Of a stretch of DNA of 64,000 bases, positions 16,333 through 63,335 are shown one piece after another; the first letter of the stretch is position 1, and every line of letters begins with the position of its first letter. A program made the translations under genes and the position numbers. Source of the DNA: Owenia fusiformis (taxonomy: Eukaryota; Annelida; Polychaeta; Sabellida; Oweniidae); assembly GCA_903813345.2 (NCBI GenBank), contig CAIIXF020000008.1, positions 1,309,341 to 1,373,340 of the forward strand, written 5' to 3'. Under the pieces are notes generated by a model that made no database searches, was not told the origin of the DNA, and saw only the letters and a list, made by a program, of their open reading frames with translations.

Positions 16333-16810
16333 AATACTTCATTTTAGTGTGTGTAGTACTTTATTTCAGTGTGTAATACTGTAATACTTTATTTCAGTAT
16401 GTTTAATACTGTAATACTTTATTTCAGTGTGTCTAATATTTCAGTGTGTATATTTCTTCATTTCAGTGTCAGTTTGTATTTATTACTTCATTTCAGTGTG
16501 CATATTACTTCATTTCAGTGTGTGTACTACTTCATTTCAGTGTGTGTATTACTTCATTTCAGTGTGCATATTACTTCATTTCAGTGTGCATATTACTTCA
16601 TTTCAGTGTGCATATTACTTCATTTCAGTGTACATACTACTTCATTTCAGTGTGTGTATTACTTCATTTCAGTGTGCATATTACTTCATTTCAGTGTGCA
16701 TATTACTTCATTTCAGTGTACATACTACTTCATTTCAGTGTGTGTATTACTTCATTTCAGTGTGCATATTACTTCATTTCAGTGTGCATATTACTTCATT
16801 TCAGTGTGTG
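16333..16810 (+). repeat. 22-bp minisatellite carrying ~20 splice acceptors
   Basis: Units of the type TGCATATTACTTCATTTCAG repeat with a 22-bp period after a more irregular start. About 20 copies of TTTCAG followed by TGTG or TGTA occur. The last TTTCAG (ending 16804) is the acceptor of the ribokinase exon, whose first bases TGTGTGTAGTA match the repeat. The array therefore amplifies an intron-exon boundary. All three plus-strand frames are free of stops through most of it. Confidence 0.9.
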
Positions 16811-18234
16811 TAGTATTGAATCCAGCTCCTGCAGTAAAGAGACTTGATGATGCCATGTATAGCTCCTGTGATATATTCTGCCCCAATGAAACTGAGGTAA
16901 ACATTTTAATTTTGGTATGATTATAATCTAAACTGTCATTTTGTATGAGGATTATGAAATCCACAGTTAATTAAACTTCAAAACTGCATCTCAATAGTAA
17001 ATACTTCTCTCAAATATAAGAAATTACCTAAATCATATTGATTATTTAACTTCCTTTTGCTAAATGATCATTATTCAATTATTTCTGTTGAGGAAGTTCA
17101 ATGTCACCAGTTTTCCATTTGAATTCAGAGTCCAAATCGACTAGAAACCTTCTATTAGATGGTTTAAATGACTGTATGGTGCAATACTTGAATGTGGTGA
17201 GAATGCATTCCATTCCAATATCTAATACCACATTTGTAGATCATCGATTCCAATGTTGTAGGCAGAGATCTTAACAGGTACAAAGGTTGCCAGTATATCA
17301 GATGCTAGTGCTGCAATTAAGGCACTGCAGGGTAAAGGCTGCTCAACAGTTATAATCACTATGGGGTCCCAGGGTGCTGTGTTTGCTGAACCAGGGCAAG
17401 AGGCCAAACATGTAGCTGCTTCCCCAGTCAATGCAGTTGATTCAACGGTGAGTATAGTCTTGCTTCATGTGTACTTTTATATAAATATTCCCAAATGTTT
17501 TCTTTGATGAGATTCCACAATAATTGTTGGTCAGTATGTCTCCATATTGATGACAGATATGATATATGATATGAAATACAGTAAAGCCTACCTTATCATA
17601 ATGCTCATGAAACCAGTAAAAAGTGAGTGTTCACATTTTAAGTTTTTTCTTACATTTCAATTCAAATCAGCTTTATTCAACTATACACAAAAAAACGTTA
17701 CTTTGAATTTTAGACCTACCAGATATTTGAAAATCAAGGATTATGAGGCTCATACTGCACCATTTTTTCTTCAAACCTGTTCCATACAAAGCATAACAAA
17801 AATGCCATATTGTTGGTCCTCTTCACAATCCTTGATTTTCAAATTAAAGTTTTTTCATGTATAGTTGGACAGCATGTAAATAGTATTATTTACAAGGTCT
17901 TACATGACACCCTTGCAAATGATACAGTATTATTTGTCAATCAATGGGGAACTGAGAAAGTTTCAAATTGATAGTTGTTCGGATTAGGAGGTGTTCTGAT
18001 ACAGGTTTTATGTACTAAAACTTCCTATTAACAAATTTGGCTATATTATTTCAGGGTGCTGGTGATGCCTTTGTAGGAGCCCTGGGCTATTACCTGGCAT
18101 GCATGCCACAATTGACTCTAAGTGAGAAGATTCAAAGGTCCTGTACAATTGCAAGCTTTAGTGTAGAGAGACCAGGAACTCAGACTAGCTATAGACCAAA
18201 ACATGAACTCCCAAAAGAGCTTTTCCAAGTTTGA
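16805..18234 (+). CDS. RBKS: Ribokinase, last three coding exons
   Basis: Exons at 16805-16896, 17262-17447 and 18055-18234 join in frame to give the C-terminal half of a PfkB-family ribokinase, which phosphorylates D-ribose with ATP in the cytosol. Visible landmarks are LNPAPAVKRL, FCPNETEAEILTG, VIITMGSQG and VDSTGAGDAFVGAL. GAGD holds the catalytic aspartate and anion hole, and the motif is split by the last intron (DST/GAGD). The C-terminus ends GTQTSYRPKHELPKELF. Donors and acceptors are GT/AG. The N-terminal exons are not in the 16 kb upstream that I could read. They may lie beyond the window, making the zinc-finger cluster intronic, or be lost. The first exon here begins at the last unit of the splice-acceptor array. 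Confidence 0.9.
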
Positions 18235-34081: not shown

Positions 34082-39227
<5,146 letters not shown>

Positions 39228-39465: not shown

Positions 39466-42400
39466 ATGTCTAGATGTCGTCGGGCGAGTCATGCTGGAAG
39501 TTGGTATAGCAGAAATGGTAAAGATTATTCTCGTACCGGTTCAATTGACGAAAGAAATTTCAGAAATAATTTTGTTATTGTTTTTCCTTCATGGAGAGAC
39601 ACTATGCGACATCTATTATTAGAGAGCAAATCAGAATATGTTTATAAGAATGTCCAATAAGCTGTGTATTATTGTTTTTTATCAAACCCAATTCTGTTCT
39701 TATCAAAATGTGATGTATTTATTAGATATCAATTGTGTTATTTGGGAGAACCACCTAGGGATAATTCAATCTTCAAAAGCTCTATTGAGTCTTGAGTAGA
39801 ATCAGTTGAAACTGGAGTCTCTAGAAGGATGATCTTCTGAAGACCATAGAGAGAACCATACACTTAATAATGCAAGTTGAATGGTCACTCGTCCATGTAA
39901 TATTACTTGTGCATGTGTACCATTACAGGGAGTGAGCTGAACCACCAGTTGGGGACGTGGTTGAACAATGTCGCAGATATACATGTACACAGACCTGCAA
40001 GAGCAATAATTGGGCCGTTAGTACAACACTTTTATTTTGACAAAAGAACAACAAAGAATGCACTTGATACAAACTTGTTTCAATAAAACATAATTTGAAA
40101 GAAAAACTGCTGCTAGTGTTAATCTTGAAAGAATCAATATCTTATACAGTTACAATTCCATTCCATTGTACTGTAGTGTCATACTGTTTCATTGCACTGT
40201 CATACAATGAACAGTATGACACTTTAGCAGTACAATGAATCTATTCAGTTTTGGTACTTTGCTTTAAAATTGCCTCAGTTGCCAGATACACCTCAGCTTC
40301 AGAGCTTGTACCTATTGAATCTCACCTCATACTTAATACTTCCATAGTTTGTTTCTTAGAATATATATTCCATGGTATTATGCAAATTTGTTGCTTATGA
40401 CCTTATTTTATGATATTTTTAGACATGCAGGTTATTCCTACTGTGGAGAATGTGGCGGCTATGCTTACAAACAAATAGACCCAACTAAAACGTAAGTAGA
40501 ATACATTCCTGGATAAAATAAGGTTGACGTTAAAACTTTATCCTTGTCTACACTTTGGCATTTATATGCACAGAATAATGGAGTTGCAGTATAAGGAAAT
40601 ATTGAATACAGCATCATAGAATAACAAACCAGTTTGTATGTTATTTCAGAAAGCGTATATTTATCCTGGGACCATCTCACCATATCAGTTTCCAAGGATG
40701 TGCTCTCACTAGCCAGACACAATATGAGACACCACTCTATAACCTTACAATAGACCAACAAAGTGAGTATGAAACACCAGGGTATAACCTTACAATATAG
40801 AAACAAAGTGAGTAGGAGACTCTACTCTATAACCTTACAATGTGTACCAAAAAGTGAGTATGAGACACCAGGGTATAAGCTTACAATATAGAAACAAAGT
40901 GAGTATGAGGCACCACTCTATAACCTTACAATAGACCAACAAAGTGAGTATGAGAAACCCCTCTATAACCTTACAATATACCATCAAAGTGAGTGTGAGA
41001 CCCCACTCTATAACCTTACAATAGACCAACAAAGTGAGTATGAGACACCATGCTATAACCTACATGTATAATAGACTATCAAAGTGAGTCTACTTATGGG
41101 TCCTTCTTATGGGTATAAACACTTGACTTTTGTTTATGTTTAGTTGGGGGGGGGGGCACAGGGATCTTTGCAAGATGATCTAACACAACACTGAAATGCA
41201 GCTATCCAAATACAGCAATATAATCACATCAAGCTGTCAATTTTCCTAACACTGACCAGTGACACTATGATGCAAAATAATACTGTTGATTGTTTCTCTA
41301 TAACATATTCCGACCAAATATTTAAATAAATTTATTTGGCAAACTCAACATGGTGTGCTGGTGCTAGCATTTGTGAGTATAATGCTGACCTAAAGTGAAA
41401 TCATCCAACCGCATCCAGAAATTCATTTATTTTTCCGCCTGTCTCCATTTTCACCTTCAGTATTCAGTCTCAATTATTTTTTCTTGTCATTTGGTATCTC
41501 CCTTTACTTCTACTAAGCTTTGATGCAGTAGCAAGGCTAATGTATCAGTGTATTTGATCGCATTTATTTTTCCATAATGTGTGTATACTTCCATTTCAGT
41601 TTATAGTGAGCTGAACAGCACAGGAGAATTTGAAACGATCAATTTAGATGTGGATGAGGATGAACATAGCGTAGAAATGCAGTTGCCATATATAGCCAAG
41701 GTCATGGAAAGGTCAGTTGCCATATTATATAGCCAAGGTCATGGAAAGGTCTGTTGCCATATTATAAAGCCAAGGTCATGGAAATGTCAGTTGCCATATT
41801 ATATAGCCAAGGTCATGGAAAGGTCAGTTGCCATATTATATAGCCAAGGTCATGGAAAGGTCAGTTGTCATATATAATCAAGGTCATAGAAAGGTCAATT
41901 TTCATATGTAGCCACGGTCATAGAAAGGTCAGTTGCCATATATAGCCAGTCATTGAAATCAAGGAGTGTTCAATTATACCTCTACAAATTAATGTAAATA
42001 TGATGTTTAAGTTATGCATACGCTTTTAGTTTTAGGCTGTGAATTTAGAATAACTCTATACATTGATAGACTGTACATTCCTAGGTTAGATCAGAGACAT
42101 CTTCATTTATAAGTCTCGTTCAATCATTTTTGGAGTCAAACATAAAAACAATTTTGTTTGCAGTCGCCAGGGCCAGTTTACAATAGTTCCTGTGCTGGTT
42201 GGCTCGTTGAACCCTGAGAAAGAAGCCAAATATGGCAGGATTTTCAGTCAGTATTTAGCCGACCCTGAAAACTTCTTTGTGATCTCATCTGACTTCTGCC
42301 ATTGGGGTAAGGTAACATAAATCTGTATGAGGAACACCTTCCATACTGGTCAGCGCACATAAGTGTTATTATAGTGTTCTGTTCCTTGTAGACAGGTGTT

Positions 42401-61832: not shown

Positions 61833-63203
61833 ACATAAAATCAAATACGTTCAGTGAGAAGATACGTTAATAAGTAAAATATCCTAATAACATGAATAAT
61901 GAAGCTGAAGTCAATAGAAGACAAGGTGCAAAGATACTCAAACTGATTAATCATGAGCCCAACTACTATTGGATCGAGCTAGTAGTTGCTAGGGAGGGAA
62001 AGGGGGCAAACATATTATTTCATTAATTCATATCTCTAGGTCCTGGGTTGCGTACGGAATTGGGCCCAGTTTGGAATAGTCATGATGATAGAACTTTATA
62101 TAGTCAAGATGGTTTAGGATAAGTGTGGCATCAATAAGACTTGAGATTAGGCTTTTGTGTTTCCATTCGAGTTTTCTTAGTGCGTGGAAATAACCATATT
62201 TTACATCGTATCACTGAGCTTAATAAATGTAATAAACATCGAACAGTTGAAGAAATGGTTCAATCAATTATATTGAACTGATGGTCACGTGACTAAGAAA
62301 ATCAATTACACCACGATGGTGATACTCCAGACCTATGAGATTGAAACAGTTGAGATGAAATGAAAGCAAGATAGGTGGAAATATTATCAGAGAGTAACTA
62401 CTATCTACATGCATCACTGGTAAGTTATATTTACAATAAGTCTTCCTTTCATCATTCTAGCGCGGTAAGGCAAAGCGTAATTGTGCTATTTTCTAAATAA
62501 TCACTTAATTTCGACTATATATTGTGCCGAGATTGGAAAGGTTGATAGATTCATTAGTTTTAAGTGTAATATTATATTGTTTCTAGCGTGTGTAGCTCTG
62601 TATCTGATGAAATGAAGTAAAAGGAAATCAATTAATTACAAGAAAGAAGAATATAAATAACGAAGAAATGTATCCATTCCTCTTTAAGTTGCACTGGAAA
62701 TAGTTTGATATAAAACTCTAGTTGCACTTGATTTGATTTTACGTCCCGTAAATTCTCCTCGGAAACGAAGCACCACTTAAGATTGGTGGAGATTGTTCAA
62801 GTAGATCATGTAGATAGAGCTGCTAATATTATGAAGGTGGAAAAGAACAAATGCGTTCAACGATTACTAACTTCATTTTACAGGTAGTAAAATTAGTGAA
62901 TATTCGGAAATAGTTGATAGGCGCTCTATATCATTATTGCAAATGAAAAGAAAGGTTGCAATTTCCAGAAGTAAGTGATATTCATTTCAAATTCCTAGAA
63001 TGATGAAACCTTCCAAATAATATTTGGCGAGGCAAAATCTTGGAGGCAAGAACTTCCGGAGGCGAACTAAGAATTTGAAATTATCTTCGAGGCGTTCGCA
63101 TTGAAGACGTTGGGTCAGTCTGTTTCGGTAGCAAGTTCAACCACAGGGTGGAATGACTCCCAATTGATCATATGATCAAATCAGAGGGAAAAGAAGAAAG
63201 TTA
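61833..63203. other. Terminal interval; nothing recognised
   Basis: AT-rich, with no coding pattern I can defend. It might hold an untranslated exon or promoter of a neighbouring gene beyond the window. Confidence 0.35.
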
Positions 63204-63335
63204 TACTTACATACGAAATGAAACCCCTGAATATTAAGGTCATGTTCTACTTACATACGAAATGAAACCCCTGAATATTAAGGTCATGTTCGACTTACAT
63301 ACGAAATGAAACCCCTGAATATTAAGACCATGTCG
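63204..63335. repeat. 44-bp tandem repeat, three copies
   Basis: ACTTACATACGAAATGAAAC and CCCTGAATATTAAGGTCATG repeat three times almost perfectly; the last unit has AAGACCATG. Confidence 0.93.

Follow-up and report, generated by a model that had tools for sequence, protein, structure and literature searches.

Tandem repeats that span exon-intron boundaries, termed mirages, have been described in amphioxus in Adh3, in the globin genes BflGb6 and BflGb9 and in other genes (PMC3087553), and also in PGBD5 and, as cited in the same report, in Adh and TnC (PMC3902484). In the sections of these two papers that deal with them, mirages lie at either exon edge, have AG or GT in many of the repeats and differ in length between haplotypes, while splicing is apparently regular. 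Their units measure 10-72 bp in Adh3 (Canestro et al. 2002, as cited in PMC3087553) or about 150 bp in the globin genes (PMC3087553), and inside a cluster, though not towards its borders, they are homogenised (PMC3087553, PMC3902484). In human, a minisatellite of IFI6 (6-16) supplies multiple splice donors, according to the title of Turri et al. (1995), and this array disturbs splicing, according to one sentence of a paper citing it. Intron gain through tandem duplication of proto-splice sites has also been discussed (Rogers 1989, as cited in PMC3087553; PMC2891723). Earthworm metallothionein genes have minisatellites in the first intron, and the relevant part of that report does not mention their crossing the edge of an exon (PMC12783039). 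Among the matches listed in our literature search, which left many journals outside its coverage, no description of boundary-spanning repeats in an annelid was found, and in the literature found the name mirage was used for exon-boundary minisatellites only in amphioxus.

We analysed a stretch of 64,000 nucleotides from the annelid Owenia fusiformis (contig CAIIXF020000008.1, positions 1,309,341 to 1,373,340; hereafter the window), in which two consecutive exons of a MEMO1-like gene end in tandem arrays. The features of this locus are as follows.

40650..40762, plus strand: MEMO1-like exon 4, ending at the first donor (Pfam Memo over its cut-off; phases join)
40723..41088, plus strand: array 1, eight units, most of them 45 bp long, in which the final 40 coding bases of exon 4 are followed by GTGAG; the exon itself supplies unit 1, and units 2-8 are intronic (TRF and unit splitting)
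40763..40768, plus strand: first 5′ splice site of exon 4, GTGAGT, the probable working donor
40798..40800, plus strand: TAG in frame in unit 2 of array 1, part of the transcript from any of the seven distal donors
41600..41711, plus strand: MEMO1-like exon 5, ending ...LPYIAKVME at the first GTCAGT donor (phase and alignment with human MEMO1)
41680..41941, plus strand: array 2, exon-5 end plus donor, seven units of 34-37 bp and a degenerate eighth towards 41975 (TRF at 41689-41941; units traced into the exon)
42164..42306, plus strand: MEMO1-like exon 6, whose acceptor joins to the exon-5 donor (Pfam Memo; alignment with human MEMO1)

An initial annotation, made from the letters of the sequence, had claimed that the last 40 coding bases and the 5′ splice site of exon 4 are repeated about seven more times in the intron. 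When we cut the array at AAAGTGAGT, eight units of 45, 45, 46, 45, 45, 45, 45 and 50 bp were obtained, in agreement with this claim. In the window, TRF reported the array at 40723-41061 with a period of 45, 7.5 copies and 80% matches, and also gave a period of 90 with 86% matches. The annotated period of 45 bp, or 15 codons, held for TRF and for most of the units, but unit 3 measures 46 bp and unit 8 measures 50 bp, so that beyond unit 3 the frame of the exon is no longer kept. The sequence AAA/GTGAGT was kept in all eight units, as expected from the annotated A/GTGAG at every copy, and 24 of the 51 columns of the unit alignment were invariant, all of AAA and GTGAG among them. The GTs are at 40763, 40808, 40854, 40899, 40944, 40989, 41034 and 41084; the eight junctions had been placed correctly, although the numbers given for them were those of the last exonic bases, one less than the GT. 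Because each unit consists of 40 exon bases and 5 intron bases, the repeat unit spans the exon-intron boundary, and its derivation from the exon end plus donor, also part of the annotation, was supported.

The assignment of exon 4 to MEMO1 proved sound. A profile search of the assembly placed Pfam Memo over its cut-off at exons 4 and 6. When exons 4-6 were joined via the first donors, the resulting 122 residues gave a gap-free, end-to-end alignment with human MEMO1 (173.9 bits, E 1.5e-50); thus the first donor of each exon makes the conserved protein. The distal donors gave different products. Reading on from exon 4, the frame ends at the TAG at 40798, which had been noted in unit 2, and since all seven distal exon-4 donors take in this codon, distal donor use would lead to the truncation foreseen. 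For exon 5, four of the six distal donors shift the frame; over the stretch joined, five of the six run into a stop and one (41823) stays open. Pairing with what we take to be the U1 end sequence was predicted at −6.5 to −6.8 kcal/mol for seven of the eight exon-4 donors and at −5.7 kcal/mol for the last, and at −6.5 to −1.3 kcal/mol for the exon-5 donors.

Array 2, which the initial annotation did not contain, is independent of array 1, with another unit on the next MEMO1 exon. All of its donors are of the GTC type, with GTs at 41712, 41749, 41786, 41823, 41860, 41894 and 41928 (spacings 37, 37, 37, 37, 34 and 34), and the unit could be traced back to about 41680 inside exon 5. The bases after the GT, CAGTTGCC (+3 to +6 = CAGT), are the same as the exon sequence with which the unit starts, which suggests that duplication produced the donor context seen today. 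What is left of the original donor region may be the degenerate unit at the end, and the putative original donor at this far end looks decayed. In the region 41680-41975 of the window, the 37-bp units are flanked by 34-bp ones, namely the exon copy on one side and the final two full copies on the other. The exon 6 donor had no array in the TRF list of the window.

Boundary arrays in the window were not confined to MEMO1. Also beyond the initial annotation, an array at the other type of exon edge was found before a ribokinase-like exon.

16352..16808, plus strand: acceptor-type array with the 22-bp unit TATTACTTCATTTCAG/TGTGCA, 14.9 copies at 16481-16808 and degenerate units upstream (TRF and reading)

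The 22-bp unit ends in TTTCAG, and the array adjoins an exon starting VVLNPAPAVKRLDD...NETE. This 29-aa exon had no Pfam match itself; two stretches after it matched Pfam PfkB (E 3.2e-11 and 2.1e-6). One open frame runs through the array and the exon, at 16357-16917. This brings the boundary arrays to at least three, in a window that was annotated in part. Tandem repeats make up 8.5% of the window, and 8.5% again of the 97,182 bases examined at 30 myosin-exon loci, some of which overlap. In a genome so dense in tandem arrays, chance should place some of them on exon edges time and again; MEMO1 has two cases and the window at least three. On the minus strand of the window, a 44-bp unit with donor-like CGTAT/GTAAGT occurs three times at 63200-63333, ahead of which no clear exon was seen, and a 22-bp intronic array lies at 34884-34964, past the donor of a Methyltransf_28-matching exon.

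Like the amphioxus mirages, the Owenia arrays have units that span the boundary and contain splice signals, and they affect several genes, at either edge of the exon. They differ in belonging to an annelid, in occupying consecutive exons of one gene and, in one array, in having eight invariant donors. Searched for taxon markers, the assembly gave three matches over the cut-off to Eryth_link_C, the family of annelid erythrocruorin linkers, and no match to COX1. As read from the sequence, the Owenia arrays share the structural features of mirages, with splicing judged at the protein level. The MEMO1 minisatellite resembles the IFI6 array in its multiple predicted donor sequences. In IFI6 (6-16), however, the unit is reportedly 12 bp long and in frame, and several repeats are said to be used, whereas the MEMO1 unit is 45 bp long and its second copy brings a stop. 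Intron gain from proto-splice sites likewise involves duplication around splice signals, but the MEMO1 array lengthens an existing intron, and no new one is seen.

For the genome-wide frequency of such arrays, we searched the 498-Mb assembly for three copies of AGGTRAGT with gaps of 17-47 bases, using the reversed motif as a control. There were 998 triples of AGGTRAGT and 490 of the reversed motif, while single copies of AGGTRAGT were rarer than those of its reverse (33,163 versus 47,644), which gives a 2.9-fold excess of triples per site, in match counts that are swollen by long arrays. Triples of CAGGTAAGT numbered 140, versus 51 for the control. Two more control 8-mers gave 379 and 31 triples, from which, for want of single counts, no per-site rate follows. 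Counted as clusters, the first 12.0 Mb of C1 held 6 donor arrays, whereas the control motif gave 10 over all 62.2 Mb of C1 (p 0.014 by Poisson and 0.033 by a two-count test), a small sample. By hand calculation, an acceptor-like motif, TTTWCAGG, showed no excess per site over its control (triples 467 versus 333, singles 83,358 versus 59,547, ratio 1.0).

We read the 5′ edges of 16 donor arrays, 6 on C1 and 10 among the 100 of 140 CAGGTAAGT matches listed; as they were chosen by a strict donor consensus, this sample favours true donors. By eye and without a blind control, 14 of the 16 edges (L004-L008 and L040-L048) start at, or can be traced to, an exon end that looks coding, and in the other two, L009 and L049, no clear exon was seen at the start of the array. 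The array of L046 begins inside the intron, and its exon origin was judged, again by eye, from a decayed resemblance. Fifteen peptides in by-eye frames (L009 omitted) were scanned and five were over the Pfam cut-off (Muted, Rieske_4, NIF, Il2rg and B56); L043 had a kringle match below the cut-off (E 6.6e-6), and weak matches were seen to Methyltransf_11 (0.0039), DUF4845 (0.045) and Tetraspanin (0.058). The short exons of L045 and L048 had no Pfam match. Under a blind rule, which took the longest open stretch ending at the motif and a Pfam threshold of E≤0.01, 5 of 16 donor edges matched versus 0 of 10 control edges, a comparison weakened by the 2 donor and 6 control peptides that were shorter than 20 aa and too short to scan (5 of 14 versus 0 of 4 among those scanned). 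The open stretches were longer at donor than at control edges (Mann-Whitney p 0.005). One of these arrays, L007 (C1:5411300-5413700), has a 33-bp donor unit that is in frame and free of stops in the stretch shown, so that the protein could gain 11-residue repeats (VSPNAHSFDTE) if a later donor were used.

These results suggest that exon-boundary minisatellites are common in an annelid genome too, beyond the phylum of amphioxus. A further reading, which we put forward tentatively and consider rather doubtful, is that minisatellites preferentially start to grow, or preferentially survive, at splice donors, with about 250 strict-consensus ladders in the genome (extrapolated from 6 arrays in 12 Mb), more with looser donors, and with mirages widespread in animals. 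It builds on the per-site excess of donor triples and the lack of one for the acceptor-like motif. If it is true, mirages keep rewriting exon edges and feed intron growth or gain, and are no oddity of amphioxus.

We compared the conservation of the donor with that of the rest of the unit. In array 1, the 9 donor columns had no mismatches while the other columns had a mean of 0.110 per site; the donor window was the best of 45 windows (p about 0.0015 by column placement). The ranks of the donor window in the eight arrays tested were 1 of 45 (array 1), 15 of 37 (array 2), 7 of 54, 32 of 52, 9 of 25, 29 of 33, 19 of 38 and 8 of 29. Thus in seven of the eight the donor columns were not the best-conserved part of the unit; six of the eight had been picked by a donor motif and are biased to conserved donors. 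The absence of mismatches in array 1 hints at a constraint on its copies. As only array 1 stands out among the eight, we dropped general selection on donor copies as an account, and we read the data as an absence of such selection; array 1 would then be either a matter of luck or an exception that we do not explain.

Array 1 is very probably a minisatellite born across the exon-intron boundary, of the mirage kind and nearly neutral. A short tandem duplication that took in the exon-4 end (40 coding bases) and the first intron bases would have come first. Slippage or unequal exchange would then have expanded it to eight units, a step reflected in the unequal copies and in the 90-bp higher-order repeat. 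The spliceosome would take the first donor, leaving mRNA and protein unchanged and the extra units as intron, a step for which the support at the protein level is strong. Boundary arrays can be nearly neutral, or tolerated, because a duplication of the boundary leaves one intact exon end and donor on the exon side. In favour of near-neutrality are the gapless MEMO1 product of 122 aa, the independent array on exon 5, the tandem-repeat cover of 8.5%, the excess of donor triples, the coding-looking array edges with the Pfam matches under the blind rule, and the amphioxus mirages, which are built alike and reportedly splice regularly. Against it are the conservation of the array 1 donors, the eight near-equal donors, which might compete, the 30 myosin exons, none with an array of at least three copies across its donor, and the ties between minisatellites and splicing reported for C. 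elegans (PMC4039745, by its title) and for the human 6-16 array. On balance, the MEMO1 array is probably neutral and ordinary for MEMO1 itself; of the two roles that the initial annotation had offered for it, tolerated noise fits best.

The other role, a length-dependent splicing switch, would make the array a device of regulated unproductive splicing, in which distal donors are sometimes used, the transcripts with the TAG at 40798 are degraded and the length of the array tunes MEMO1 output. The stop lies in frame for all seven distal exon-4 donors, their predicted pairing with U1 is nearly equal and the donor is the best-conserved window of array 1, all as this account would have it, and in C. 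elegans intronic minisatellites have been tied to splicing decisions, according to the title of one report (PMC4039745). However, similar arrays occur at the next MEMO1 exon and in unrelated genes with varied coding consequences, L007 reading through without a stop in the stretch shown; of the distal exon-5 donors, four of six shift the frame, and with 41823 no stop is met in the joined stretch; amphioxus mirages reportedly leave splicing undisturbed; and the donor columns were not the best window in seven of the eight arrays. We consider the account very improbable, and the switch was dropped as the best explanation because of the arrays in unrelated genes and their varied coding consequences.

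The conserved donors of array 1 might instead reflect selected redundancy, with the extra sites backing up a moderate first site, AAA/GTGAGT. The lack of donor mismatches over the eight units would agree with this, but a backup donor of exon 4 leads to a truncated product and hence does not rescue function, and the donors of array 2 vary (one at −1.3 kcal/mol, with the donor window 15th of 37), which makes redundancy hardly credible. An artefact of assembly, for which one could cite that a single assembly lies behind the array, is the most improbable of the accounts weighed here: the units differ from one another, the arrays extend over only 366 bp (array 1) and about 262 bp (array 2), array 1 has a single matching locus in the 498-Mb assembly, and similar arrays are found at many places.

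Whether two arrays in one gene are special was also considered, post hoc and with exons counted by eye, and the case is weak. The probability of at least two arrays among 8 donors is 0.010, 0.027, 0.057 or 0.14 if 2, 3.3, 5 or 8.5% of donors, respectively, are in arrays. Among 30 of the 92 myosin exon matches listed, several of whose loci overlap, none had an array of at least three copies across the donor, and two arrays in one MEMO1 gene exceed the prediction from this small sample. At L029, a 17-bp repeat of 2.2 copies crosses the end of the myosin exon, and at the myosin locus L016 an array begins about 24 bp inside the intron.

The boundary arrays described here show a possible route of exon-edge and intron change. 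In addition, a conserved gene with a ladder of near-identical donors amounts to a natural experiment on spliceosomal choice among equal sites that differ in distance.

A few other loci were seen along the way. Acceptor-type arrays occur at C3:2522786, with units reading GESGLGKSTLINS as the exon start, from the letters, and at C4:6144195, with units reading VETIGDAY or VETICDAY; we take the former to be a P-loop, septin-like sequence and the latter to be guanylate-cyclase-like. At C9:37986009-37994334, 12 myosin-head matches lie in a row on one strand, all at profile positions of about 18-84, and may represent a set of alternative exons belonging to a single myosin gene.
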